Source of the DNA: Heliocidaris erythrogramma
Taxonomy: Eukaryota; Echinodermata; Echinoidea; Camarodonta; Echinometridae
Direction of reading: 5' to 3'
DNA: 64,000 nt
NCBI GenBank assembly: GCA_025617745.1
Contig: CM046870.1
Coordinates: 11,212,410 to 11,276,409 of the forward strand
The notes below the pieces were generated by a model. It ran no database searches. It was not told the DNA's origin and saw nothing but the letters and a program-made list of their open reading frames with translations. Below, piece by piece: positions 4,126 through 62,162 of the stretch (positions are counted from its first letter, which is position 1; every line of letters starts with the position of its first letter). Position numbers and translations under genes: made by a program.

Positions 4126-4284
4126 GTTGGTCCGTGAGGTAACAAACGTAGACGTCAACATGAGAGTCGGTATCCACACAGGCAAGGTGCACTGCGGAGT
4201 CCTGGGGATGAGGAAGTGGCAATTCGATGTCTGGTCCAATGACGTCACTCTGGCAAACATCATGGAGGCTGGGGGCATGCCAGG
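4126..4284 (+). CDS. ADCY5/6: Adenylyl cyclase exon 1 of window (end of C1a)
   Basis: The exon starts after the acceptor TACAG and ends before donor GTGAGT at 4285. It begins with one base of a split codon and ends with two bases of the next. It encodes [11 protein letters not shown], then [16 protein letters not shown], then [15 protein letters not shown] and MEAGG. In the family the arginine of MRVGIH contacts the ATP phosphates and the [10 protein letters not shown] segment forms the dimer face with C2. The preceding exon, with the GDCYYC metal site, is not in the window. A decayed copy of this exon's first half lies 740 bases upstream. Confidence 0.95.
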
Positions 4285-6269
4285 GTGAGTTTAGAACAAA
4301 TCATGATGGAAAACAAAAGCCCTCCATTTTACAATAACGGATTGTAAAGCCTCTTTGACACATACATGAATGCAACAAATCATCTAAAAAGACATAGAAA
4401 AGAAAGACAACAAACAAACGAAATTGCAGTGGCAAAATAAAAAAGAAATAATGTAAATCAATGGCAAGTGAGGTGAAAAATAGTTAAGGGGAACATAGAT
4501 CCAATATAGCATAATTGCTATATTGGATATAATTGTTGAATGATACAGAAATGTAAAATGGACTATATGTGACATTATATTCAGCCAGCACAATTGTTCT
4601 TGTTGTTTGTTGTTTTTGTTTTGTTTTGTTGTTTTTGTTTACAAGGAAAAAGCTAAATGATTGTACATTGTACAGTGTGTGCATCTTTTATCCCTAAAAC
4701 AACAACACCAACAACAAAAAGAAATATATCAATTTAGCTCTGGGAAGATCCGAAAGTGCTCTGAAAACTTTGTCAATAAAGAAAATATAAACAAAATAAT
4801 AGAGAAATTATACAAAAATCCGAAGGTCAAAATATGCTATTGTAAATTGAAAAAAAAAACCCCAGAAGAGAGAGAGAGAAAACAAAAAGAAGAAATATAT
4901 ATTAAAAAATCCATCCAGCAATACACTGTACATGTATGTCTTTTTATATAGATCCTAGTAAAAAAGAATTCTATAATTAACCAAATTGAAGCATTTACTG
5001 TTAGTTAGAAATGAACCTATCTATTGGTTTTGAAATGTTTTTGTGGAAGCAGGCTTTTATATAAACATTGAGTTGTGCATGACACGGGTTACATAGCTAG
5101 CAATAATGAACCAAAAAATATAGTAAGAACAACTGAACACTGAATCTATGTGGGTGTAAGATAGAAATGCACTAAGTGTACATTTTGTCCAGATTTTTAA
5201 AAATGAATATAGTTTGTATGTTTACTGCATACATGTCAAAAGAGCTCACTCCTTTGTGAACTACATGTATCTTCATAAAAGTAAAGTATTGGAGTTTGTG
5301 GACACCTTTGTGTATCTAATTCAACGTGTACATGTTAAGCTTAATTTTATTTTCATGCTTGCTTCAGCAATGCCCAAGTAATGTATGCTGCCATTAACAT
5401 GGTGCTAGAGGTTATATCTTGTTTAGAATAACTACAAAGTCTCTATTTCACCTGGACATGAATATTTTAGAATTTCGTTCAGAGAGGGTTGAAGAAAAAC
5501 AATCCGTATTTTGCCCCAAACTCCCCCTGAATGTTAAGTCCCTTATATGCCATCGGATGTTATCTAAAAAAGCACTTCCCTTGTATCTCTTTCATTAATA
5601 TCACTAAATTGGGATGACCGAAATTATCGAGAAAGGCGCTGTTTTCAGATGGAATCAAAACAGCTAGAAGTATTACCCAATTCGACACTGGGCTTAACAT
5701 AATAACACTTTATGTGAATTTAGCTACTAGGTCATGTGTTGTTCTCTGTATGGATAAAATATAATTTTAACGCACCCAGCTATCACTTACTCGTAAATTT
5801 AGCGTTGCATCCTGGTATAAGAGCGCTGGAGCCAAAACAATCTTAAAAGGGCAAATGTTATTCTTACATCTGTGGTGTGTCATCTAGAATGTAATTGAGA
5901 TTGCTCCGGTGACTTTATGGACAGCTACGTCTTTGTATTGTTTTACGTTAACCCTTTCTGTGCTACTAAGGTTATGAGCAGTTTTCCTAAATGGACTTTC
6001 AGAGAGACAATTTGAATTTGATTTATTTCATAATATTATAAAGAAAGAAAAATAAGGAGAATAAAGGAGTAGAAGTAGGAGAAGATGAAGGAAAAGGAGA
6101 CACATGGAGGAGGAGGAGGAGGAGGAGGAGAAGAGAGAGAGAGAGAGAGGGGGGAGGGAACCCCGTTGTTTTGTTAACTGTAAGATTCTCTAACTTAAAG
6201 TTTTGAAACAACAAGTCCTGTGTAAATGTAGCTAACGTAGCCCTAGATAATGAAAGACGGTCAAATATG

Positions 6270-21800: not shown

Positions 21801-24800
21801 TTTTCTTGAATTTTTTTCTGTTTTCTTTCTTTTCCGTTTTCTTTCTTATTCCGTTTCCACTTCTACTTTGTCTACCTTTTCCTTTTTTTTTCCTGTATTT
21901 TAATTGCATTTTTTTCCTTCTCCTTCTTTCCTACGAAACGTCCTTGTGATCTGCATACTTTCTATTTATGTTTTATCTTCTTTAAAATAACATACATGTA
22001 TTGTAGTCACTACAGTCAACAGCAGTCCCCTCTTTATTATTATTATTATGATCCCCAAAGTGAACTCGTCTAAAAAAAAATACACCTGTCTGTCGTTTTA
22101 GACAACATTGTATCATATGAAAATGATGCTTGATAAATCCAGTTATGATAATGGTGATGGTGATGGTGATGGTGATGATCATGATAATTATTATGATTAT
22201 AATTCAGGTTGGGTCTAGATAAGAACCAAGAGAAGACTGATCCCGAGGAAGAGGTTAACGAGTTCTTGGGTCGTGCCATCGATGCTAGGAGCATAGACAG
22301 GCTGAGGTCAGAACATGTCCGCAGACTCACGCTTACTTTCCTCAAAAAAGACCTGGAAGAAAAGGTATGTTGTATCGCTGGTTGAGCCTTGCTCATACAT
22401 GTTACAGTTAAACACCTAAGGAAAACAGCTGGGGTAAAGGGAGACCAATTTTGGTCTAAATGCTTGGCAAGTGGGGTTAAAAAAATAGCTGTGTGCAACA
22501 AAGCAATTAATGTCATATCACACTCAAAGCCAGTCAATATTGAATTATTACTGTACTTGTAAGACTCCTACAACCAGATTAACCTTAAAACTATTCAAAC
22601 AAAACAAGTTTAGCAACAATTAACCCAACCCTCATCTGTTTGGGAAAAGCATTTCTTTTTTTGTGTGCCGTTTCCGTAAGATACAGTAGCAACATGAAGC
22701 TGCATAAATATAAGTTGTTTCTAAGAAGAAAATATTTCATGCAGTATAGTGAAAGTGATTTGGAAGGTAGGGAATAAGGTATATGATGGAAAGTTATCCA
22801 TAATCTAGTGGTTCATCATCTATTCCTAACTCCACAAAAAAGTCTTCTTGGGGGAAAAAATGTCTTTTAAAAACAATCTATTTGGATGTACCTAATTGGG
22901 TGAAATCTCTAGTTCAATGTTTTTAGTATGTTTGGGTTTTATTTGAGAATACAATACCAGCTCAAATTATATTAAAAGCGGAACTTTGCACCAGTAAATG
23001 CATTTTGTAGATAGCACTGATTTGATTAATGTGATGACATGTTTAAGTTTCAAGCACTAGGATCAAGTAATGACCTTATATACTGATTGAGTAATTATTT
23101 CCCTGTGCAGTATTCCAAGGTTCGTGACCCCATGTTCAGCTCCTACATGGTGTGTGCACTTCTCATCCTCATCGCCATATGCCTTGCACAGGTCGTTGCC
23201 TTCCCAAAGTAAGTATCATATGCCTTGCATAATGTTTTTGCCTTTCCTAGGTAAGTATCATATGCCTTGCATTGGTTGTAGCCTTCCCAAACTAAGTATC
23301 GTATATGCCTTGCATAGGTCATTGCCTTCCCTAAGTAAGAATCATATGCCTTGCATCGGTTCTTGCCTCCCCTAAGTAAGTACCATTTGCCTTGCATAGG
23401 TTTTTGCCTTTCCAAAGTAAGTGTCATATGACTTGCTTAAGCCATTGCCTTCCTTAGGTAAGTACATGTACCATATGTCTAGCATAGGTTTGTTGCCATC
23501 CCTAAGTAAGTATCATATGCCTTGCACATGTCATTGCCTTCCCAAAGTGAGTAAATGAATTATATAAAGTACCTGTATGCCTTGCTTAGGTAGCTTAGTC
23601 AACGCTTCCATCAATTGCGTGGTGTGAGACTGTTTTGAAATATCCTCAGTTGATGAAATTTTGTATTTCTGAATATTTACTGCTACAAATTCAGAATTGC
23701 CTGTTTTAGATATAACTTTTTTATGATAATACCCAAGCATTGCTTTCCAAACTCAACTGCAGCTTTTCTGTAAACCCACTGACTACTGCATTCCCAAATT
23801 CTAATAGAGTTAATACAGGGACCATCTGGTTCCAGTGGGGAATGGGGTAACCCTTATTTCCAGTGGGTTCAATCCTGAGCAGTCTTGGGCTCGATCCTTG
23901 AAGAGTAGGCAGGAGTGCGTAATAAGTCCACACTGGATGGTGGGACTGATTTCTACAACTATATACTCTCTAAGTAAATGCTAGGACTGGATGATTCGTA
24001 ATGTTTCTTAGTAACAGGAACAGGGAGTGTGTGTCCGAAGATGGCCACTGATTAGAAAGGGAGGAAGTGAGAAGTAAAGAGGAATAGAAATGTATTGTAA
24101 GGGATGGTCATTTCCAAGGAATAAGCCTCGCCTATTAACCCCTTCCATGCCACCAGATTTTTGAGCAATTTTCAAAAATGAACTTTCAAGAGTTCAATAT
24201 TTACTTTCAATGAGTTTTTTCTTGAGCAAACTAGGCAAAGATATATTGCATAGGAATAAACATTATGTTGAAGGCACAGATTCTGTATGAGGAAAATTGT
24301 CAAGCCATTCTCAAATTTTTGGGCGGGATTTGCCGCCCACGGCATGGTAGGGGTTAAGGAGTGAATACAAGAAGACCACCAAGTACCTCGTAAACAATCT
24401 TGAATAGGTGATTGACTTTCTGAGAGGGTGGGAAGTGATGTTGCAAATACTAATAAACATGTATGATGACAAATTTACTCTTATTTCCCCCCTCGTTTCT
24501 CTCTGCAGGACATACATCATGTTGGGTGTGTTTGTTGGTATAGTCGTCTTCTCGTCTCTCACTCTGTATATAGTCCTGGCTGAGAAGTGTACGGTAAGTC
24601 ATGCCCCATTCTTAAAGATAAAATTGAGTTCTGGTCATGAGATTCCATTGCGCAAGAAACTGTCTCAAAACAATTGGGAAAGGTTGATTATATACATGTA
24701 CATTAGTACATAAGAATTAGTGTATGGTGTATTCTTAAGGTTTTGGAATCACCAAAATGAGAAGAAATTGACTCAATCCTGCTGAGAATCACATGCACTG

Positions 24801-30800: not shown

Positions 30801-33800
30801 TCATCACTATGAATTTGTTTAAATGTTATCGATACCAACTTTGTTCATTTTAATGATAAACAGACTTTTTGTCCATGATACATCATGGACAATTATTATT
30901 TGACATGTCCTCCCATGTAAAAAATGTCTGTTTCACCATAAAACTTGAGGAAAGAGACACTGTGAGTAATTTATGTACAAAACACAATTGGGGAAGTTCT
31001 TCTTGTACATCAATGACATCACACATCTTGACTGCATTGCTAATGCGAGGATCTCCATATCATTAGTGATCCCATCTTTCAAATATTCATAACTTCTTTA
31101 TTATTTGGAGTCAAAAGGGGCCTGAGCTTTCGATCCTAGCAGAATCTTCGTCAGAGGCAAAAAGACTTTATTATTTGTCAAATTTATCTCAAACCTTCAC
31201 AAATTTGTTTCTCTGATTTTTCTGCTTTTCTATGCCAACTAAGCCAACTTTTTTCATCTGTTGAAAAGACGAGATGCACGATGATCCAAATTTTGCTCCA
31301 AGCTTTATTTCATCGAATATGTAAGGTTAGGGCTAGGGTTGCTGTTTAACCCTTTCATGACAGAAATTATTTAAGGGCTAAATTGGTCACATTTTGTTCT
31401 TCAAATTGGCAACAAAAATATTTTTCTTTTAATGCTACATGGTTCAAATAAAATGGAATGTCTTTGAAAACATTACATGGTTAAAACTTTTATCGAAATT
31501 GCCAATTTGGACAAGAAACCACGATTTTGAACCTCTCAATGTGTAGCCAATTATAAGGATTTTTATTCTGTTTTTAAAAATACCTGGCATCGAATGCAAT
31601 TTGGTGCAAATAAAATGGACACAGTGTGTGCAGAATTTCTTGTATCTGGTATATTTTTTTAGGGCTCTGAATCAAAAGTAATTGAGCCAAACCACAAAAT
31701 GCGGTCATTTGTCTCAAAAGGGTGAAAAAGTTAGGTTAAGGGTTAGTGTTAGGTTATAGTTTTAGACCATGCGTTGATATTTGGACTTTAATTACTGTAC
31801 AAAATTGATCACCAAGCACTAGTCTCCAGAGACGTGCATCATGCAATCAATCAAAAGCATGGTTTATATTATATTTCTGTGTCTACTTTATTACCTTTTT
31901 AACTAAATTCATGAATATTCTGGATTGAGAGTCTTTTGATGCTGTCATATATTGTTGAATACCTAAAATTATTTTATTTCCTTTTGTTTTTTTCGTTTTT
32001 TTCATTGCAGTACTTCACTTTCAGCATATTGCTTGTCATGCTCAGCTGCGCCGTGTTCCAGCAGCTTGGCAGTCTCACAAAACTTGTATTTCTTCTTCTC
32101 ATTGGTGCAATATACCTGTCCCTCATAGAGACCATTCAAGTCAATCTACTTACAAACTATGATACACTACAGCGGGCATATGTAGAGTAAGTATAATGAT
32201 TTGTTTTTAGTACTTGCTCATTTCCTTATTTATTTTTATTTTTTTTTTTTGAGATTGTAGGATTTACTGCAATAAATCATATATACCTACCCATTATGCC
32301 TGTAGTCTTGACTACGGGACCCCTTCGAGAATTTATCACACATGAGTCACAATATTGTGCGCACCCCCCGTAATCCTATTGTCCCCTTCGCCACTCACGC
32401 GCGTCAATACGCTACGGCCATCTTCCTCTTTCTTGCTCGCCCCCGACGAGATAGGACGTATAGTCACAGCGCTCCTGAATTCAGGTCGTATAGTATCTTT
32501 TAGGTGCGCTTTTTCGCATAGTTAAAGCACTTTTAGGTACCTATATTCGTTTAGATTATAGTACTTTGTGTTTTAGTAGTCACTCTTGCCGATTGCAAGG
32601 GATTTTTTGATTCCCTTTCTTGGCACTTATTTTTCTCTTTCACGGTCAGCCCCACGTAGATATTTCTGTGTTTGCGGGTGTTTCCGTTTGTCACCGAGCC
32701 TTTGGATTCGGTGTTTGTTCTTACGGTTTTTAGGCTGTGAAAATTTCTTTAGTGCGTATCTCCCAAATAAAATTTACCCTTATTTTACTGCATTCAGTTG
32801 AAGTATTTCTTATTTTGAAAAGTATACTTTATTGTCTGTTTTATTGCAGTGGTATGGATTCGGAAGAAGAAGCAGCTAGGTCAAGGAGACCTGCTTCTTC
32901 CGAAGAGTCGTCTAGCAAGACGACTCGGCCTTCCAGAACTCCCCCGGGTACTGCGGTACACGGGGGAGGGAGGAGGGCTAAGGGTAAGTTGCCTAGTGGT
33001 GTTTCCTTGCAGAGTTTGCCAGTCTCGGAGCTTGCGGCTTCGGGACGGGTGGCGTTAACTGAATCGGGATTGTCAACTCCGAAGCCCGTGGTTTCGGGGT
33101 GGGTGGCGTCAGATTCTAGTGGTTTGGATATCTCGAATCCAATCCCCCGGTCGCTGAGACCAGAGGGGGGGGGGGGCGGTTGTTTCCCGTACGGTAGCGT
33201 TCACTCGCTCTGATCCGTTAGGGGAGACGCGCCCCACTACTGCAGGGCAACCCACGGGCTTAGTCCATGTTGGTCTGGGTTCTCAAACCCTAGCCCCGGC
33301 AAATGCCATATGGGGGAACGAGTACTTCCTGGGCTGTCTACATTGCCAGCTAATGGGAATGCTCGAGCTAACAATTATGGACGCTCTTCGGAGCAACAGG
33401 TGTTTTCACCTGAGTGCGTGACTACTAGTGCTCCCCTATTGCTGCTTTCGAGCGGTCCAATAGTGGGTTCACACGCCTTTAGTAGTCATCGGGCACATAC
33501 CGAGTCATCTCGGTCTGCCCACGCACTGGGAGCTTTTAGCTCCCAACCCATGGCTATTGCATCTTCTTGCCTAGCCAATATGGGTGATTTGGGCGATTCT
33601 CTAGGCTTACGCCATGAGCGCTCCAATCCCTTTATGGGAAGTGAACGTCCCTCCGCGGAGGGATCGGTTCGTGTTTCCGAAGAGGCTTCGGGATCCGAAC
33701 GAATCCGATTAAGCGTTCTAAGAAAAGGGTTTCGGCTACGACTCTTGTCGAGCCAGCCAAGAAAAAGGCCAAGAAGAAGGCAAAAAGCGGCAAGGCTTTG

Positions 33801-36800
33801 CCGGCCTCTTGCCCGTCTGGCCTGGCTAACCCAGCTAGCTCCTCTCAAGCTGACATGTTCAGTATGATGCGGGCTTTTGCTCAGAATCAGGGTTGGTCCT
33901 TTGTACCGGCTTCTTCAACCCTGACTTCTGTCCCTATTCAGGGATCTCGCTTTGAGTCTAATCAGCCTTTTGTGATTGATTCCTCTTTGTCTGAGTCGGA
34001 TTCGCATGTGCCTCCTATTCCGGCGGCCCTTGGGGCTCCGCCGCGCGAGGAGACTTTTGGTGAATCATGCAGGGACCTGCCTGCGGAGGCCTTTGTTAGC
34101 GTTCCTTTGTCTCATTCCACTCGGGTGGAACCAGATTTGGATGTGTCCTCTCAAGCTTCGGTTCCCGAATCGCTTGGGCAGGCGGAGTCTCAATCGCTCG
34201 ATCTCTGTGGGGTGGAAGCGATTGCTTTGTTGTCCAAATATCTCCCTGAAATTCAGTCAACCCGCGCGCAGGGTTCGACTTCGCGTTGGAAATTTAAGCA
34301 GCAGGTCTCCTCTGAGGGTATTGCTCTTGAGGAGGTTTTCAAGCTGGAGTATGACCGCATTGAGGCCGCGCTGTTGGTTAAGCGATCTAATGCGGTCAGG
34401 GGTAAGGCCTTTGCCTTTTGTTCTCAGGACCAAGACAGCTTTTTCAAGGCTAAGACTCTTTCTCCTGAGATTTTAGAGGTTGGTCGTCGCTTGCGGGCGA
34501 CTAATCCGCTTACCTCCGCTGCGTTCAGAGCGGAGGATAAGATTTGGTCTAATATTGAAAACCACATTAGGTCAGGGATGCGTTTGGCGGCTTTTCAAGG
34601 GCTTCTCTCCGACCTTAGGTCCAGGGCGGAGGAGTTGAATGTTACCGATGGTGACAAGCTGATTATTGACGACTTGCTGCATACTCTTTTTTGTCTGCAG
34701 TGGTCGCAGCTTTCCACCGCAGCTGCTTCGGCTACGTTCCGTCGCAGGACCTCGGCTCTCTCGGCACTGGGTGTTAGAGAGTCGGGCATTGCTCAACTTC
34801 TCCGAGATGTTCCGTCTCGGGGTCCTTCGCTTTTTGGTGGTAAATTTGCTACGGTGTTTCAAAGAGAGATCGATGCGCGAAAGCAGATCTCTAAGCCAAC
34901 GCGGGCCCCTGTTCAGCGTAAACCTGCTGGTCCCGTTTCGGGTCAACGCAGTCGCGTGTCTAGGGTCCCGCCTCCTGAGCCGCAGCCAGCTCCTTCTCGT
35001 GGGAGAGGGAGTCGTGGCAGGGGCTTTTCGAGAGGTTCTCGTGGTAAGGCGATGGCTTCGCAGAAGGCCAAGCCTGGATTTTGATGTTTTTCCCGAGCGC
35101 TTGTTCGACCGAATGTGGTAGGTGGCCGACTTCATGCGTTTCTCCCCGCTTGGGAGGCCATCTCCGGGGACGTGTTTGTTCTCTCCGTCGTGCGAGACGG
35201 ATTCTTCATAGATCTTTGCGCCTCGCTCCCCGGAGGGGCTATAAGAATTCGGTCACCTCCCATGTCTGCCCTGTCTCGGTCTCATGCTTCAAAGGAGATC
35301 GAGTCTCTTTTGGAAAAGAGGGCTATAGAAAGGGTAAGAGACAGGCCGTCTCTTTCCCTTTCTCCAATTTTCGTTATTCCCAAGCGCTCGGGAAAACTTC
35401 GTTTGATACTGAACCTGAAAAGAATAAACAAATTCATTCCTCAGGTTCATTTTCGGATGGAGACTCTTGCCTCCATTCTTCCGTTGATCAAAAGGGAAGA
35501 CTACGCGGTCTCGATAGATCTCAAGGATGCGTACTTTCACATTCCCATTCATCGCGCATCTCGCGATCTTCTGGGGTTCTCCTTCCTCTCGGAGACTTAT
35601 CGTTTTCGCGCTCTTCCCTTCGGGCTGCGCCCGGCCCCTCAGGTTTTTACTCAAGTTGTAGCGGTGCTAGCGGCCTCTCTGAGGCGTCGCGGCCTGCGGT
35701 TGTTTTGTTACCTAGACGATTGGCTTCTCCTTGCGGAGTCGCGCGATCGTTTGTTGGACGAGACTCGTTTGCTCGTCTCTCTTACTCAAGACTTAGGTTT
35801 CCTAATAAATTGGGAAAAGTCTTTTTGGTAGCTATTGCCTCTGGGCAGAGGCGCAGTACTCTTCATGCTCTCTGTCTTACTCCTGGTCATGTTCGCTGGG
35901 AGAGAAAAGGCGTTAGATTGATTCCTAGGGCTTCTTTTGTTGCCAAGAATCAGACAGCTGCCTCTGGTCCTGTTGAGATTTTTCTTTGTCCGCTTTCTAA
36001 CTTTTCTTCGGTGCGTGAGGACAAAGTTTGGTGTCCTGTAAGGGCTCTCAAATGGTATATTGATAAGACTAAGTCTTATCGTAAGGATGATCAGTTGTTC
36101 CTGATCACTAGAGAGCCTTTTTCTCCTGCCTCTCTTGATTCCATCTCTAGATGGATCGTTGAAGCTCTTAGGGCCGCTGGCACAGAGGCTCTTTTATCCG
36201 ACAGTAAGCCTCGTGCTCATGATACTCGTAGTGTCAGCACTTCTTGGGCTCTGTTTCAAGGTGTGGCGCTTGTTGATATTTTGAAGGCTGCTTATTGGCG
36301 TTCGCCCAATTCCTTCATTTCTTGCTACCTTAGGGATGTTCCCGCAGGTGAAGCTTTGTTTGCGTCAGCCACCTTGAAGGCCGCTGTGTCTTCTTTGTAG
36401 TCTTTGGTGTAATCCTATTCCCTTCTGCTCGAAACATGCCTCCCGGTCTTTGAGTTGGCGCTGGTCTGGCATAATAGGTAGGTATATATGATTTATTGCA
36501 GTAAATTTGTAAAATCAGCACTGATTTTCTTATTTACTATATAAATCTATATACCTACCTATGACCCTCCCTCCTTCCCCGCACCTTGCAAGCAACATGT
36601 TTCTTCTTGGGGTTGCTCGCAAAAGAGGAAGATGGCCGTAGCGTATTGACGCGCGTGAGTGGCGAAGGGGACAATAGGATTACGGGGGGTGCGCACAATA
36701 TTGTGACTCATGTGTGTTAAATTCTCGAAGGGGTCCCGTAGTCAAGACTACAGGCATAATAGGTAGGTATATAGATTTATATAGTAAACTAGAAAGGCCG

Positions 36801-39800: not shown

Positions 39801-42800
39801 CTGTGACATACATTTTGAGCACCTCTTCCAGTTGCTCTACTACATGTACATTCTAGGGATTGTATCCCTTTCACTAATGTTTAAAACATCACAAAATATG
39901 CATGGATCAGCATTATACCGCAACAATAACAGTTATGAAATCACCCCATCATAGGTTCCACAGTATGTTGGAAAATCGCTCATGCCAGTTTTGAGGTGCT
40001 AAGTTTAAAATGTATGATTCTTTTTAAAAGCGGCGATTCTGTTACAAAATCGATCAGACCAATATCGATTCTGTCCCAAGACCAATCAATTTGTAAGATT
40101 GATTTTGTTACAGATCAGAAGTGAAATAATATTTGGCAAAGGGGTGAAAAAACCATTTCATGAAAAATGAGATTCTTGTTTCTATCGTATTGAAGGTTTT
40201 ATTATTTCATTATTGTTCATAGCCAATGCGTCCCTGTATGGCTGAATTTGCAAATGATTGACAAAATTAATGAAAACGTACGAACAGTGAAAAACTTATA
40301 TACTTGAAAATTATCATAAAATGCATAAACAGGAACATGATGAGTAAATTTGAATAATCTAACATATTGCATTATCCTAAAGAAAAAAGTAGTATCATCA
40401 TTGAAAATGTAGTTAATGTAAGATCTGGATGACGTTATGATGATCTATAATATGGAGGGGATGTAGTAAAGGGTACATAAATTGTCTTCATGCATTTACG
40501 GTACCATTGTGTTCATACAGTTCTATAATTGTATCCCCTGGCAGTATGCCGGAGGATACTTTGGATTCAGCAGCGTTTCGCCGCCGCCGCCGCCGCGGCC
40601 GCGTCACATTCTTGTGTGCGCTCTAGCGGTCACATTTCTCGACGAATTTCTTTCAGACTTCCTGTGGACGTGTATCTTGGTAAAATCTGGACTCCTATAG
40701 TTTCTGGTGATGCTGCTCCCAGTGTTCCGTCTTTTATAGGGTAAAAGGCCATATTTGGGGGGAATAGTTTGTGTGCGCTCTAGCGGTCACATTTCTCAAC
40801 GGATTTTGTTCAAATTTTGTATGAAGGTGTCTCTTGGTAAAATCTGGAACCCTATAGATTTTGGTGATGCTGCCCCCAGTGTTCCGTCTTTTATAGGGTC
40901 AAAGGTCATATTTTGATAGATGTCTTGTGTGTACTCTTGTGTGCGCTCTGGCGGTCACATTTCTCAACGGATTTCGTTCAAATTTTGCATGAAGGTGTCT
41001 CTTGGTGTAATTTAAAAACTTATAGTGTTTGGTGATGCTGCCACCAGTGTTCAGTCTTTTATAGGGTCAAAGGTCATACTTCAGGGCATGGTGTGAGTGC
41101 ACTCTGCAGGCCACATTTCTCAACGGATTTTGTTCAAATTTTGTATGGAGATGTATCTTGGTATAATCTACACATATTTAATTTTTGGTGATGCTGCCCT
41201 CATTGTTCCGTCCTTTATAGGGTCAAAGGTCATTTTTCCATTTCTTGCACTCTTACTTCTGCATTTCTCGACGGATTTCGTTCAAATTTTGCATGAAGGT
41301 GTCCCTTGGTGTAATCTAAAAACCTGTACTTTTTGGTGATGCTGCCACCAGTGTCCCGTCTTTTATAGGGTCAAAGGTCATATTTCAAGGGATGGCGTGA
41401 GTTCACTCTGCAGGCCACATTTCTTGATGGATTTCTTTCAAATTTTGTATGGAGATGTATCTTGGTATAATCTACACATCTTTACTGTTTGGTGATGCTG
41501 CCCTCATTGTTCCGTCCTTTATAGGGTCAAAGCTCATTTGTCCCTTTTGTGCACTCTTACTTCTGCATTTCTTGACGGATTTCATTCAAATTTTGTATGG
41601 AGATGTATCTTGGTATAATCTACACATATTTAATTTTTGGTGATGCTGCCCTCATTGTTCCGTCCTTTATAGGGTCAAAGGTCATACTTCAGGGCATGGC
41701 GTGAGTGCACTCTGCAGGCCACATTTCTTGATGGATTTCTTTCAAATTTTGTCTGGAGATGTATCTTGGTATAATCTACACATCTTTACTGTTTGGTGAT
41801 GCTGCCCTCATTGTTCCGTCCTTTATAGGGTCAAAGCTCATTTGTCCCTTTTGTGCACTCTTACTTCTGCATTTCTTGACGGATTTCATTCAAATTTTGT
41901 ATGGAGATGTAATTTACTGCAATAAATCATATATACCTACCTATTATGCCTGTAGTCTTGACTACGGGACCCCTTCGAGAATTTAACACAAATGAGTCAC
42001 AATATTGTGTTTTAGTAGTCACTCTTGCCGATTGCAAGGGATTTTTGATTCCCTTTCTTGGCATTTATTTTTCTCTTTCACGGTCAGCCCCACGTAGATA
42101 TTGCTGTGTGTTTGCGGGTGTTTCCGTTTGTCACCGAGCCTTTGGGTTCGGTGTTTGTTCTTACGGTTTTTTGGCTGTGAAAATTCTTTTGTGCGTATCT
42201 CCCAAATAAAATTTACCCTTATTTTACTGCATTCAGTTGAAGTATTTCTTATTTTGAAAAGTATACTTTATTGTCTGTTTTATTGCAGTGGTATGGATTC
42301 GGAAGAAGCAGCTAGGTCAAGGAGACCTGCTTCTTCCGAAGAGTCGTCTAGCAAGACGACTCGGCCTTCCAGAACTCTCCCGAGTACTTCGGTACATGGG
42401 GGAGGGAGGAGGGCTAAGGGTAAGTTGCCTAGTGGTGTTTCCTTGCAGAGTTTGCCAGTCTCGGAGCTTGCGGCTTCGGGACGGGTGGCGTTAACTGAGT
42501 CGGGATTGTCAACTCCGAAGCCCGTGGTTTCGGGGTGGGTGGCGTCAGATTCTAGTGGTTTGGATATCTAACGAATCCAATCCCCCGGTCGCGGAGACCA
42601 GAGGGGGGGGCGGTTGTTTCCCGTACGGTAGCGTTCACTCGCTCTGATCCGTTAGGGGAGACGCGCCCCACTACTGCAGGGCAACCCACGGGCTTAGTCC
42701 ATGTTGGTCTGGGTTCTCAAACCCTAGCCCCTGGCAAACGCCATATGGGGGAACGAGTACTTCCTGGGCTGTCTACATTGCCAGCTAATGGGAATGCTCG

Positions 42801-45800
42801 AGCTAACAATTATGGACGCTCTTCGGAGCAACAGGTGTTTTCACCTGAGTGCGTGACTACTAGTGCTTCCCTATTGCCGCTTTCTAGCGGTCCAATAGCG
42901 GGTTCACACGCCTTTAGTAGTCATCGGGCACATACCGAGTCATCTCGGTCTGCCCCCGCACTGGGAGCTTTTAGCTCCCAACCCATGGCTACTGCATCTT
43001 CTTGCTTAGCCAATATGGGTGATTTGGGCGATTCTCTAGGCTTACGCCATGAGCGCTCCAATCCCTTTATGGGAAGTGAACGTCCCTCCGCGGAGGGATC
43101 GGTTCGTGTTTCCGAAGCGGCTTCGGAGATCCGAACGAATCCGATTAAGCGTTCTAAGAAAAGGGTTTCGGCTACGACTCTTGTCGAGCCAGCCAAGAAA
43201 AAGGCCAAGAAGAAGGCAAAAAGTGGCAAGGCTTTGCCGGCCTCTTGCCCGTCTGGCCTGGCTAACCCAGTTAGCTCCTCTCAAGCTGACATGTTCAGCA
43301 TGATGCGGGCTTTTGCTCAGAATCAGGGTTGGTCCTTTGTACCGGCTACTTCAACCCTGACTTCTGTCCCTATTCAGGGGTCTCGCTTTGAGTCTAATCA
43401 GCCTTTTGTGATTGATTCGTCTTTGTCTGAGTTGGATTCGCATGTGCCTCCTATTCCCGCGGCCCTTGGGGCGCCGCCGGGCGAGGAGACTTTTGTTGAA
43501 CCATGCGGGGCTCTGCCTGCTGAGGCCTTTGTTAGCGTTCCTTTGTCTCATTCCACTCGGGTGGAACCAGATTTGGAGGTGGCCTCTCAAGCTTCGGTTT
43601 CTGAATCGCTTGGGCAGGCGGAGTCTCAATCGCTCGCCCTCTGTGGGGTGGAAGCGATTGCTTTGTTGTCCAGATATCTCCCTGAATTTCAGTCAACCCG
43701 CGCGCAGGGTTCGACTTCGCGTTGGTTTAAGCAGCAGGATTCCTGCTGAGTCCTTTGTTGGCGTTCCTTTGCCGGGTCATCCCGGTCCGCCCTTGCACTG
43801 GGCGCCTTGGCGCCCGGCCCATGGCTGTTGCATCTTCTTGCTCAGCCGATATGGGTAATTGGTGCGCGTCTTTGGGTTCAATACCCTCAGCGCACTTCTC
43901 CCTCAGCGGAGGGTTCGGTTCGTGTTCCCGAATAAACGCTCTGAAAAGCGGGTTTCGACTTAGGCTCTTTTTGGGCCAATCAGAAGCCTAGGGAAGGGGC
44001 TAAAAGAGGCAAGGCTTTGCCTGCCTCTTGCCCATCGGGTTTAGCTAACCCTCCGGTCTCTCAAGCTGAGATGTTCGGTGTGAGATGGGCTTTGCCCAGA
44101 CTCAGGGTTGGTCCCTTGTACCAGGCATCACATCCCCTGCTTTTGTTCCTTTTTTGAGTCGGACATCGAGACTAATTAGCCTTTTATGGTTTATTCTTCT
44201 TTGTCTGTGACGGGATCACATGCGCCTCCTATTCTCGCAGCCTCGGGGCTCCGTCGGGTGAGGAGGCTTATGGCGGTTCATGCGTGAATCCGACTGTTTC
44301 GGCCTTTGTTCGTGATCCTTTGTCACGATCATTTCAGGCGGAACCAAGTTTGGAAGCGGCCTCTCAAGCAGGCAGAGACTTAGTCGCTCTCCCTTTGTGG
44401 GGTGGAAGCGATTGCTTTGTTCTAAACTTTCCCTGACTTTCAGTCAGCCCGCGCGCAGGGTTCGACTTTGCTTGGGTTCAGGCAGCGGGATTCCTCCGAG
44501 GGTATTTCTCTTGCGGAGGATTTCAAGCTGGATTATGGACGCATTGAAGCGGCGCTTCTTTTAAGCGTCATGTTTGGTTTGCAGTGGTCATAGTTTTCCA
44601 CTGCAGCTGCCTCGGTCATGTACCGTCGCAGAGTCTTGTTTCTTACGGCCCTTTGGGTTAAGGAGTCGGACATCGCACTGCTTCTCTCGGATGTTCCGTC
44701 TCGGGTCCTTTGCTTTTGGCGATGCGCGATAACAGGTCTCTGTCTTGTTTACATGCTCATCCTAAGTCGATGCGAGCCTCTGTCCGCGTCTTGGTTGGTG
44801 GCTGTCTTCGTTCCTTTCTCCCCGCTTGGGAGGCCATCTCCGGGGACGCTTTTGTTCTCTTTGGCGGACGAGACGGATTCTTCATAGATCTGTCCGCCCC
44901 GCTCCCCGGAGGGGCTATAGGAACTCGGTCACCTCACAGGCCCTAGCTCGTTCTCGTGCCTCATCAGAGATTGAATCTCTGTTGAAGAAGTGGGCTATAG
45001 AAAGGGTAAGAGACTGGCTGTCTTTTTCCCTTTCTCCGACTTTTGTTATTCCCAAGCGCTCGGAAAAACTTCAGTACATTTTCGGATGGAGACTCTCGCC
45101 TCTATTCTCCTGTTGATCAAGAGGAAGGACTACGCGGTCTTGATAGTTTTCAAAGATGCGTATTTCCACTTTCCCATTCATCGCGCTTCGCGCGATCTTC
45201 TGGGGTTTTCCTTCCTCTCAGAGACTTATCGCTTTCGCACTCTTCCCTTCGGGCTGCGCCCAGTCCCTCGGGTTCTTACTCAGGTTGTAGCCGTGCTGGC
45301 AGCCTCTCTGAGGCGACGCGGCCTTCGGCTATTTTTGCTACCTGGACGATTGGCTTCTCCTGGCGGAGTCGCGCTATTGTTTGTTGAACGAGACTCGTTT
45401 GCTCGTCAATCTTACTCAAGACTTGGGTTTCCTAATATTTTGGGAAAAGTCAGAGTTAGTTCCTACTTGCAGCCCAGTTTTTCTGGGGGCTGTGTTGGAC
45501 ATTTGGAATCAGTTGGCTCGGCCCAGTCGAGACAGGTTTCTCACCATTGTCTCGGCAGCTCGCAAACTCATGCTGGCCAGAAAGGTTCTTGCGCGAGGCA
45601 AGTCCTTCCGTACCCCCCTCCCCCTTCCGTTGATCTCGGTTTCGACGGACACCTCTCGGTTGGGGTGGGGAGGACATTGCAATGGCAGCGCGGTCGCGGG
45701 GAATTGGTCTCATCTTGGGACTCTTCCCCATATTTAATGTCCTGGAGTTTATGGCAGTTCTTTTAACCCTGCTTCATTTCAGAAGTCGACTTTTCAGTCG

Positions 45801-48800
45801 TTTAGTTCTGATCCTCACGGACAATGTCACTGTGGCGGCTTATGTCAATCTGCAGGGAAGCACTCGTTCTGCTATCCTGAATGCCCTAGCAGCACAGCTG
45901 TGGAGGTGGTGTTGTCGCATGGCGATCACACCCGTGGCCTCTTTCATCCCCGGTCTGGAAAACCTCATTGCGGATTTTCTGTCTCGGGGTAGGTGTCTTC
46001 CATCGGAATGGATGCTCCATCCAGAGGTCTTTCGCCGCATTTGCAGTTATCTGGATCCACTGGAAGTGGATCTTTTTGCGTCGGTTCTAAACCACCTACT
46101 TCCGATATATTGCTCCTGTGCGCGCGATTGGGGAGCTTGGGCTCTCAATGCTTTCTCTCTCAGTTGGGAGAATCTTCGAGGATTTGCATATCCTCCCTTC
46201 TAGCTGATTCCGCGAGTCTTGCGGAAGATCAGGGAAGATCGGGCTCGGGTGCTTGTGATAGCTCCCTTTTGGCCCAGGAGGAGTTGGTTCCGGAGCTAAT
46301 GAGCCTTCTGGCGGCTCAACCGTTCCTTCTTCCGTTAAGAGTGGATCTGGTGTTGCAGCCCCTCTCGGGGATTCTTCACCACAATCCAGAGTCCCTTCAT
46401 TTGACTGCTTGGCCCTTGTCGGGGAATCTGCAAGACAGTCGGGTCTCTGTGATAGAGCCGCGGAATTTTTATTGTCCAGTCGTAGAGTTTCTACTAGGGA
46501 GATTTATAATTCCCGTCTTTCGGTCTTTTTCCTTTGGCGTAAAGAGCGAAATCAAACCCCTTATCGGCTCCTATTGGTTCAATTGCGGATTTTCTAATCT
46601 CGCTATTTGACAAAGGGAGATCCATCTCTGCTATCCGAGGCTACCGTTCGGAACGATCGGGGCCATTCATTCGGGTTTCTCAGATGGTTCGGGGATTTCC
46701 AATTCCCCGCTGTTAAGTGGTGTGATTCGGTCGTTCTTTTTGAAGCGACCTCCTTGTTCTAGGTTAGTGCCGTCTTGGAGTCTGCCTAAGGTCCTGGAGG
46801 CCTTGGCGAAACCTCTTTTCGAACCGTTAGGTGAAGCTCGCTTCATCATCTTACGGTTAAGACGCTCTTTTTGGTAGCTTTTGCCTCTGGGCAGAGGCGC
46901 AGTACTCTTCATGCTCTCTGCCTTACTCCTGGTCATGTTCGCTGGGAGAGAAAAGGCGTTAGATTGATTCCTAAGGCTTCTTTTATTGCCGAGAATCAGA
47001 CAGCTGCCTCTGGCCCTGTTGAGATTTTTCTTTGTCTGCTTTCTGGGTTTTCGTCAGTGCGCGAGGACAAAGTGGCTCTCAATTGGTATTTTAATAAGAC
47101 TAAGTCTTATCGTAGGATGATCAGTTGTTCCTGATCACTAGAGAGCCTTTTTCTCCTGCTTCTCTTGATTCCATTTCTAGATGGATTGTCGAGGCTTTTA
47201 GGGCTGCTGGCACAGGGGCTCTTTTTTCCGACAGTAAGCCTCGTGCTCATGACACTCGTAGTGTCAGCACTTCTTGGGCTCTGTTTCAAGGTGTGGCGCT
47301 TGATGATATTTTGAAGGCTGCTTATTGGCGTTCCCCCAATTCCTTCATTTCTTGCTACCTTAGGGATGTTCCCGCAGGTGAGGCTATGTTTGCGTCAGCC
47401 CCCTTGAAGGCCGCTGTGTCTTTGTATTCTTCGCTGTAATCCTATTCCCTTCTGCTTGAAACATGCCTCCCGGTCTTTGAGTTGGCGCTGGTCTGGCATA
47501 ATAGGTAGGTATATATGATTTATTGCAGTAAATTTGTAAAATCAGCACTGATTTTCTTATTTACTATATAAATCTATATACCTACCTATGACCCTCCCTC
47601 CTTCCCCTCACCTTGCAAGCAACATGTTTCTACTTGGGATTGCTCGCAAAAGAGGAAGATGGCCGTAGCGTGTTGACGCGCGTGAGTGGCGAAGGGGACA
47701 ATAGGATTACGGGGGGTGCGCACAATATTGTGACTCATTTGTGTTAAATTCTCGAAGGGGTCCCGTAGTCAAGACTACAGGCATAATAGGTAGGTATATA
47801 GATTTATATAGTAAATAAGAAAATCAGTGCTGATTTTACAATTTTGGTATAATCTACACATATTTAATTTTTGGTGATTCTGCCCTCATTGTTCCTTTAT
47901 AGGGTCAAAGGTCATACTTCAGGGCATGGCGTGAGTGCACTCTGCAGGCCACATTTCTTGATGGATTTCTTTCAAATTTTGTATGGAGATGTATCTTGGT
48001 ATAATCTACACATCTTTACTGTTTGGTGATGCTGCCCTCATTGTTCCGTCCTTTATAGGGTCAAAGGTCATTTTTCCATTTCTTGCACTCTTACTTCTGC
48101 ATTTCTTGACGGATTTCGTTCAAATTTTGCATGAAGGTGTCTCTTGGTGTAATCTAAAAACCTATAGTTTTTGGTGATGCTGCCACCAGTGTTCCGTCTT
48201 TTATAGGGTCTAAGGTCATACTTCAGGGCATGGCGTGAGTGCACTCTGCAGGCCACATTTCTTGATGGATTTCTTTCAAATTTTGTATGGAGATGTATCT
48301 TGGTATATCTCTCAACACATTTCTTTCAAATTTTATATGAAGATGTGTCTTAGTGAAACCTACACATCTAAATTGTTTGCTGATGCTACCCCCACTGTAC
48401 CACTTTCTATACAGTCAAATGTCATATTCAGGTTGTTGTTATAGGGTCAAATGTCATATTTTTGTTGCATGCATTCTGGAGGACACATTTGTTAACTCAT
48501 TTCTTTCAGATTTTGTATGTAGGTCCATTATAGATTACACCTCTACAGTTTTTGGTGATGCCTCTAGTGTTCCGTCTTTCATAGGATCAAAGGTCATATT
48601 TTAGTGGATGGCTTATGTGCGCTCTGAGGTCATACATGTATTTCTTCCGAATTTTCTATAAAAATGCATTATACTCTAATCTGCACAAATCGTTTTGGTA
48701 ATGCTGCTCCTAGTGTTGACAATATTCCGGGCCACTGGCGGCAATTTCTACACCATCCTTTTGTTTGAGGGAGGGGATGGGGGAGGGTCTTTGTCCCTCC

Positions 48801-60741: not shown

Positions 60742-61040
60742 ATTACGTCACACTTGTAGAGACTAGGATCTAGGATGCAGATGATATTCCTTTCATTACA
60801 TCATAAATGTCTATTATGCGATGATATAAATGGGATGCAATAGGCCTATAATGAAATACATGTTTTACTGCAGCGTCTATATGGATATCAGATAAGGCTA
60901 TTTTAATTTGGTTACGCAAGTGCCAATAAATCATTTCAAACCATGAACAACAAAAGATGCAGTCGTAACGTACGGACGTCATCAGCAAGGAGCTCACAAT
61001 TTCAAGATTTTGACTATGATAGAGGATAATAATCCGAGTC

Positions 61041-62162
61041 ATGCCTAATGAGGAACGTTCTTACATCCTTAGGTCATCTACCAACTCAACATCTTCAGCA
61101 AAAACTCAAGAAAAGACTAAAATAACGGCCTCTAAATCTAGCAAATCTGCGTCAGGGACTGCCAAGCACCATACCGCACGCACCAATAACCTAACCCAGA
61201 GATCACCGAGCGGTTTGCCCCGACACAGCGCCAACAAAAATACCAGCGATCGTGAACGCTCGAGTACTCACGTGACCGCACACCCCGCCAACGCCCAATC
61301 AAGCCCAGGATCCAACGCGATGACTTCAGGTCAGTCTAATCTTTTACCAGATATGAACATGATGAAAGAGATGTTTGCCAATTTGACTAAAGAAATGAAC
61401 TCAAGATTTGATAATGTCAATTTAGATATGCACATGATAAAAGTTGAACTTCGTGAAACGAGAAAAGCGATAGAAGACCTTGAAAATGCGGTTACTTTCA
61501 ATACTAACAAAATTAAAGAGATTGAAAAGGATGTTATTCCCCAAATGATAGAAAACATGGAAAGTAAAAACAAAAAAATCGAGGAGAAGCTAATGCTTCT
61601 TGAACTACATGATAGAAAACAAAATCTGCTCATATATGGGGTCCCTGAGGTGAAAAATGAAAATGTGTACCCTACAGTGCATGGAGTTATTGCCAATTTC
61701 CTCCGAATTCCTCTTTCTGAGGCAGCTAAAATGCCTCTCGTCAATGCCCATCGCCTCCCAGGCCCTAAGCAAGGTAATTCCGGTGGGACTACGCCGCCAC
61801 CACGCCCCATTATCGTACGGTTCGCCTTCATGGAAGATCGTAATCGCCTGCTGGAATCCTTCGAAAAGCCTACTCGTCAACGCCCAGCAGATCCCGCTCA
61901 TCAACCCAATCAACAAGCCTCCCAGCTATCCCAACAGCCGCAAGCACTTGCGAATTGCTACGATCGCGTTAGTATTCGCACGGATCTACCGCCTGAAATG
62001 AAGCGAGAACGTGGCCGTCTGGCTTCAATCGCCTATAAGATCAGGAAAGAAAAACAGCTCTCTACGAGAATTCGCGTCAGTGGGATCAATCTGTACCTCC
62101 AGACCCGCAAGAAAACATCGAACGGATCACCCCAGTCACCATGGATCAACTGGGATGAATGA
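61041..62162 (+). CDS. L1-like non-LTR retrotransposon ORF1 protein
   Basis: Intact frame of 373 codons. Residues 1-100 are Ser/Thr/Asn-rich and basic. Residues about 105-190 form a heptad-type coiled coil (MFANLTKEMNSRFDNVNLDM, ETRKAIEDLENAVTFNTNKI). Then comes an RRM-like part starting RKQNLLIYGVPE (about 192-203) with NAHRLPGP and RPIIVRFAFMEDRNRLLESF, a Gln/Pro-rich insert (about 280-302), and a C-terminal block SIRTDLPPEMKRERGRLASI. This is the layout of L1-type ORF1 proteins, which form trimers and bind element RNA with chaperone activity. No ORF2 (endonuclease-RT) follows within the remaining 1.8 kb. It may be a single-ORF element, a 3'-truncated copy or a co-opted gene. The start ATG is the first in frame. 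Confidence 0.82.
   Translation: MPNEERSYILRSSTNSTSSAKTQEKTKITASKSSKSASGTAKHHTARTNNLTQRSPSGLPRHSANKNTSDRERSSTHVTAHPANAQSSPGSNAMTSGQSNLLPDMNMMKEMFANLTKEMNSRFDNVNLDMHMIKVELRETRKAIEDLENAVTFNTNKIKEIEKDVIPQMIENMESKNKKIEEKLMLLELHDRKQNLLIYGVPEVKNENVYPTVHGVIANFLRIPLSEAAKMPLVNAHRLPGPKQGNSGGTTPPPRPIIVRFAFMEDRNRLLESFEKPTRQRPADPAHQPNQQASQLSQQPQALANCYDRVSIRTDLPPEMKRERGRLASIAYKIRKEKQLSTRIRVSGINLYLQTRKKTSNGSPQSPWINWDE

Follow-up and report, generated by a model that had tools for sequence, protein, structure and literature searches.

An exon-end minisatellite that lines an adenylyl cyclase intron with copies of its own splice donor, probably as tolerated debris

When a tandem repeat carries the end of an exon and its splice donor into the following intron, the gene presents a row of donors in place of one, and it may be asked whether the extra sites regulate the gene or are simply endured. 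Accounts of how a 5' splice site is selected consider the strength of the donor, its distance and the factors bound. Among the latter, SRSF1 is reported to favour the intron-proximal donor and hnRNP A1 the intron-distal one, according to passages of PMC5585400. An array that raises this question lies in a window of 64,000 nucleotides (the whole stretch of DNA that was analysed), which is part of one contig in a 26-contig genome of 1.06 Gb.

On its + strand the window carries a gene for an adenylyl cyclase of the AC5/6 type. Seven exon translations, joined, give AC5 (8sl3) as best phmmer match (E = 8.2e-58) and AC8 as the second (E = 5.8e-29), and an AC5-like C1b and second membrane domain are present between the C1 and C2 cyclase domains, as they are in members of AC5/6. 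Matches to PF00211 lie at window positions 4133-4291 and 49405-50479. The array begins in the exon at 23111-23208 (acceptor at 23109-23110, donor at 23209), which encodes 32 residues plus a split lysine codon and corresponds, in the AC5 alignment, to the first helix of the second membrane domain. No paralogue of this exon was found in the genome at E of at most 1; three places matched, all exons of the same gene. The intron, 23209-24508, is 1.3 kb long, and its true acceptor scores 13.25 with an approximate acceptor matrix. The protein made by joining 23208 to 24509 aligns to AC5 without a gap, and 23209 is therefore taken as the genuine donor, as the first-pass annotation had proposed. Table 1 lists the features.

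Table 1. Features of the two cyclase introns (positions are those of the window unless C2 is given; donor and acceptor scores come from matrices that approximate human ones)
Feature	Position	Strand	Details and basis
Coding exon (exon 5)	23111..23208	+	98 nt, start phase 0, end phase 2; translation and phmmer
Repeat unit 1	23176..23216	+	33 bp of exon end (23176-23208) and 8 bp of intron; TRF, unit table
Real splice donor, AAA/GTAAGT	23209..23214	+	gapless AC5 join; donor matrix 7.72
Intronic repeat units 2-9	23217..23573	+	41-47 bp each; 19 extra bases after unit 9
Decoy donor, unit 2, TAG/GTAAGT	23251..23256	+	upstream pyrimidine tract TTTTTGCCTTTCCTAG; donor matrix 10.31, acceptor matrix 11.64; ratchet-point-like
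Donor position of unit 3, lost	23292..23297	+	GTAAGT to CTAAGT
Decoy donor, unit 4, TAA/GTAAGA	23335..23340	+	
Decoy donor, unit 5, TAA/GTAAGT	23376..23381	+	
Decoy donor, unit 6, AAA/GTAAGT	23417..23422	+	9-mer identical to that of the real donor, equal score
Decoy donor, unit 7, TAG/GTAAGT	23458..23463	+	pyrimidine tract CCATTGCCTTCCTTAG; donor matrix 10.31, acceptor matrix 9.48; ratchet-point-like
Decoy donor, unit 8, TAA/GTAAGT	23506..23511	+	donor matrix 6.26
Decoy donor, unit 9, AAA/GTGAGT	23547..23552	+	donor matrix 8.31
Tenth-unit fragment, without donor core	23574..23592	+	unit table
Next coding exon	24509..24593	+	split lysine codon and 28 residues; acceptor AG 24507-24508; donor GTAAGT at 24594
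Guanylyl cyclase donor array (L052/L103)	C2 ~10614000-10610438	-	31/41-bp minisatellite, 3,534-bp intron; TRF

Other elements lie farther along the window. Two related groups of long open frames, at 32734-36400 and 42098-46610, are found downstream of the last membrane-domain exon and ahead of the C2 exons; the first frames of both groups have long identical stretches in common, and a later frame gives a reverse-transcriptase-like impression. These frames may be DIRS/Gypsy-like. Near them TRF finds tandem repeats of 148-156 bp with similar consensus units (40612-41910 and 47844-48307). A 379-aa open frame at 61023-62162 has, by impression, a likeness to ORF1 of non-LTR retrotransposons.

TRF places the minisatellite at 23176-23553 (period 41, 9.0 copies, 74% matches), with units starting at 23176, 23217, 23259, 23302, 23343, 23384, 23425, 23472 and 23514 and a fragment at 23574. 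As in an IFI6-type layout, the array opens at a genuine exon/intron junction, and eight of its nine units have GT. The first-pass annotation had described a repeat of about nine copies that starts within coding sequence, takes in the exon end with its donor, and keeps GT in seven of eight later units at donor spacings of 41-48 bp; the TRF result, the coding position of unit 1 and a unit-by-unit reading bear this out. It had also proposed that the repeat was born from the exon end, which agrees with unit 1 being coding and with the array occurring at a single locus. A search with the surrounding 521 bp, one that passes over simple repeats and very frequent words, finds this one place in the 1.06 Gb, and local birth from the exon end is therefore the most likely origin. 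Insertion of a dispersed repeat into the exon is not supported, since the array region occurs only once in that search. No relatives were confirmed among prokaryote genome contigs or viral contigs. The sequence immediately upstream of 23176 is unlike the unit (39% identity, ungapped). Unit 1 is on average the nearest to all other units (0.845, versus 0.741-0.820), a pattern that constraint on the exon copy and drift in the others would produce. The total of GTRAGT motifs in the window is ordinary (52 versus 50.9 expected), and seven of the 52, the real donor included, fall within the 0.4 kb of the array.

This layout could be produced by a tandem duplication, with endpoints 33 bp before the exon end and 8 bp into the intron, that copied the exon end together with the donor, with further duplication leading to nine units (the layout is seen in the sequence; the order of events is our inference). 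The upstream copy would stay intact and the new donors would be pushed into the intron. The real donor would thus have remained the first, keeping the frame intact for as long as the spliceosome picks the first donor. The copies then drifted, as their divergence, the absence of homogenisation and a retention of GT at the neutral level show.

The use of any later donor would have one and the same outcome. Because the exon closes on AA in phase 2, the intron reads AAG TAA at once, so that reading in frame past 23209 gives CCA AAG TAA (FPK-stop). Translation from all seven later GT donors yields this identical ending, with the stop at the end of the segment corresponding, in the alignment, to the first helix of AC5's second membrane domain; the earlier claim that later donors add an in-frame TAA and truncate the cyclase within that domain holds for every one of them. 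The predicted protein from any later donor has neither the remainder of the second membrane domain nor the second catalytic domain. Such transcripts would be degraded by nonsense-mediated decay or would yield a cyclase without its second catalytic half. A single literature query for a truncated AC5 half-molecule found none. Extended exons that encode isoforms, as in the IFI6 type, are not seen in this gene, where an in-frame TAA directly follows the exon.

Several of the decoys look strong. With the approximate human donor matrix, three outscore the real donor (7.72), those at 23251 and 23458 clearly (10.31) and that at 23547 slightly (8.31), and among the ten scored donors of the gene the real one comes seventh. 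Full neglect of the decoys would therefore surprise, all the more as one of the three lies just 42 nt downstream. An exploratory folding test, on decoy sites that are not independent of each other and given no weight here, finds lower accessibility than in most of 200 shuffled contexts for five of the seven decoys (fractions 0.01, 0.025, 0.03, 0.09 and 0.125), the values being 0.63 and 0.91 for the other two and 0.625 for the real donor. Such folding may simply derive from the repeat, because the unit contains CTTGC and TTGCC, able to pair with GTAAG and GGTAA; the excess could also hint at more than drift.

The fate of the copies bears on whether these donors are of use to the gene. Measured against their consensus, the intronic units have diverged at 12.2% of sites. 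GT survives in seven of the eight, where neutral decay predicts 6.17 (probability of seven or more, 0.42), and the GTAAGT core has 3 mismatches in 48 sites versus 37 in 280 for the other 35 columns (permutation P = 0.19, drawing six random columns). Since both figures match neutral decay, donors appear to be kept no better than chance, in tests whose power is low with only eight intronic units, and selection preserving the donors is not supported by either. Pairwise p-distance among the eight averages 0.211 (0.247 corrected) with a minimum of 0.146, and identity does not drop with distance along the array. The near-identical neighbours of an unstable VNTR are missing, the best intronic pair being 85% identical. 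With the closest pair at that level and adjacent pairs no closer than remote ones, nothing points to a recent change in copy number, and such change in the window array has no support from unit divergence. If neutral change proceeds at 1-3 substitutions per site in a thousand million years, a per-unit divergence of 12% corresponds to roughly 40-120 million years.

The first-pass proposal that copy number could tune splicing is not supported by these results, GT retention being at the neutral level, mean divergence 21% and no pair looking recently copied. The same findings of neutral retention and no sign of recent change in copy number count against a fuller version, in which decoys are used at a regulated rate, Lys-stop transcripts reduce the output of cyclase and the rate depends on the number of copies. 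We consider it unlikely, even with two decoys that clearly outscore the real donor, an identical immediate stop from each of the seven, and human precedents linking repeats with splicing in IFI6 and in the VNTR of TERT intron 6, which is treated in a paper on TERT splicing (portions of PMC4526556 and PMC11830802). A further alternative, that the seven extra sites close to the 5' end of the intron hold U1 snRNP without being spliced and so aid exon definition or block premature polyadenylation, draws on their density (inside 0.3 kb, seven GT sites that each agree with the donor consensus at 6-8 of 9 positions); purifying selection on the cores is undetected, however, and a short intron leaves protection with little to do, which makes this landing strip very improbable. 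The array is probably mostly tolerated debris that may leak slight non-productive splicing, a reading that follows from the first position of the real donor, the neutral drift of its copies and the stop that awaits any later donor.

Two of the copies have taken on a different form. The pyrimidine-rich tract before the donor comes from the codons GTT GCC TTC CC, and in both unit 2 and unit 7 a single A-to-G change just ahead of GT turns the junction into pyrimidines-AG/GTAAGT. The resulting sites, 23250/23251 and 23457/23458, are the sole AG/GTRAGT sites on the + strand of the window, whose third such site sits on the - strand. Since AGGTRAGT occurs 3 times over both strands versus 3.22 by chance, the number is unremarkable, and only form and place deserve attention. 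Both sites show the sequence of a ratchet point, a pyrimidine tract with AG/GTRAGT within an intron, though the intron, at 1.3 kb, is not the long host typical of them. Recursive splicing through units 2 and 7 would leave the mature mRNA unchanged: exon 5 would be joined to 23458 (removing a 249-nt first piece), GTAAGT would be rebuilt, and the second step would run to 24509, with the array donors at 23335 and 23506 acting as weaker RS-exon donors. That both + strand sites lie in this intron, with acceptor scores of 11.64 and 9.48, fits such a route, as does the 23458 donor beating the next one downstream (10.31 versus 6.26 for 23506), in the manner that parts of PMC8605326 describe for ratchet points. 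Lariats from recursive splicing are also reported from short human introns, as a less frequent mode in the relevant section of PMC10156609. But the intron is short, the unit 2 site demands an intron piece of 42 nt, the AGGTRAGT count is that of chance and each site is one base change away from the unit, and we think this route decidedly unlikely for the array.

A second array of the same layout lies in a guanylyl cyclase gene. Its exon has its donor at C2:10613972(-) and the following exon starts at 10610438; the array opens 28 bp within the exon and spans -28 to +1123 and +2244 to +3386, so that the intron of 3,534 bp holds 57 GTAAGA sites, the real donor included. Across the junction, the joined exons match guanylyl cyclase catalytic domains (without a gap to 3et6 at E = 1.5e-28; PF00211, 8e-31), and the paralogous exons L047 and L051 appear to share the end codon position and phase of this exon. 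Reading through this donor also gives Lys-stop, and 35 of 56 decoys equal or exceed their own real donor in score with the approximate human matrix. The repeat unit is unrelated to that of the adenylyl cyclase. Neighbouring units are alike (89% mean identity, with 7 of 56 adjacent 29-mers identical), and the array therefore looks younger and more recently copied. The exon unit is less similar to the intronic units (81% mean) than the whole unit set is among itself (87%), from which it would appear that the intronic units were probably homogenised after the birth of the array. An unrelated insert of about 1.1 kb (C2 ~10612840-10611730, L103) splits the array; it ends in TGAATCTTGAATCTTGA-type repeats and gives the impression of a retrotransposon 3' end.

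The same layout arose independently in this gene, with its own unit and on a larger scale. This suggests that the choice of donor may go by position rather than by donor sequence. The two cases, with unrelated units, one old and drifting and one younger and larger, fit the view of tolerated arrays.

How often such arrays arise was surveyed on a small scale by running TRF on 60 regions around cyclase-domain matches, covering 77 of 84 coding matches (82 from the domain search plus the two window exons, with seven that lay outside the regions dropped). The survey counted arrays over a domain match or at most 40 bp from it, and exon-end arrays farther off are missed. A minisatellite overlaps the donor side in one of 75 cyclase matches once the two window exons are excluded, that one being the guanylyl cyclase exon. 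None crosses an exon end in the 27 of 74 myosin-head matches examined with 250-bp flanks, a sample in which two small arrays (L110, L118) lie just inside introns near donors. The unbiased tally is 1 of 102 coding matches, a rough figure as some matches are neighbouring or duplicate copies. A genome-wide excess of donor-bearing arrays is not supported, forward patterns being rarer than reversed ones: triple GTAAGT with gaps of 28-46 bp occurs 604 times versus 4,537 for the reversed pattern, and triple AGGTAAGT 63 times versus 175.

Two other loci came to attention in the course of the work. At C12 23372743-23373388 (-) (L048), three tandem 206-bp copies carry the acceptor and front of a cyclase exon, the two upstream copies matching the domain partly, as a mirror case of the donor arrays. 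A 53-bp array at C4:2131636-2132067(-) has AGGTAAGT in each displayed unit, and one frame reads VKEDKETLEQIARQR and then a stop; it might be a further exon-end array.

A broader reading, which we put forward tentatively and regard as doubtful in its entirety, is that exon-donor junctions here repeatedly seed minisatellites, leading to introns in which duplicates of the intron's own 5' splice site stand at the start or make up most of the length (the adenylyl cyclase gene has 8 GT sites and the guanylyl cyclase gene 57 GTAAGA, the real ones included). The first of equal or stronger donors would be picked by position, arrays would survive mainly where the first intron codon is a stop (phase 2 with GTRA) and errors are destroyed, and single changes would create ratchet-like AG/GTAAGT. 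Phase 2 with GTRA is found at both arrays, but also at three of the ten scored donors of the adenylyl cyclase gene (the exon 5 donor among them), and its protection of arrays is a hunch. If this seeding does occur, the loci are natural experiments on 5' splice site choice and offer a route for the birth of recursive splice sites. In two cyclase genes, 8 and 57 donor-like sites are lined up, several of which match or exceed the real donor, and the flanking exons of both arrays still align with intact cyclases. If the first donor is always used, position outweighs strength in both genes; if it is not, each has a built-in leak to nonsense transcripts. The guanylyl cyclase array, far longer and younger-looking, would suit a natural test of splice-site choice.

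Donor-bearing minisatellites are already on record, and the closest precedent is that of human 6-16/IFI6 (G1P3), on which the original paper is said to date from 1995. In that gene two downstream repeat units act as donors, giving three mRNA species and isoforms, as passages of PMC4526556 relate. The likeness is a minisatellite with splice donors in its units; the difference is that the IFI6 alternative donors give isoforms and their use is described in those passages, whereas the adenylyl cyclase decoys, known from sequence, all lead to a stop. The adenylyl cyclase unit is 41 bp and its copies are diverged. Among the literature matches listed, in the portions of text that they offer, there is no further minisatellite born at an exon-donor junction.

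Other systems resemble the array in part, each as far as excerpts of its source describe it. UBC polyubiquitin and other introns with tandem repeats have dual-specific AG/GT splice sites (excerpts of Duan et al. 2024, PMC10809524), and the likeness is a splice site per tandem unit, with units 2 and 7 of the adenylyl cyclase array being AG/GT and so donor or acceptor in principle; the UBC repeats, however, are coding and the sites bound each monomer, whereas the adenylyl cyclase repeats, apart from the coding portion of unit 1, lie in the intron, and AG/GTAAGT is present in just two of nine. Drosophila ratchet points, by the relevant passages of PMC8605326, lie predominantly in long introns, are well conserved and combine a strong donor and acceptor with a weaker donor downstream. 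The adenylyl cyclase sites share the pyrimidine-rich acceptor abutting a strong donor with a weaker one downstream, but in a 1.3-kb intron seen in one genome. In the potato RdRp gene an intron is reported to have been gained by tandem genomic duplication (PMC4974935); in both cases tandem duplication is the source of sequence bearing splice signals, but the adenylyl cyclase case extends an existing intron at its donor end without making a new one. Beside these systems, the adenylyl cyclase array sets itself apart by later donors that are all poison and by its ratchet-like units, and the guanylyl cyclase intron by its scale.
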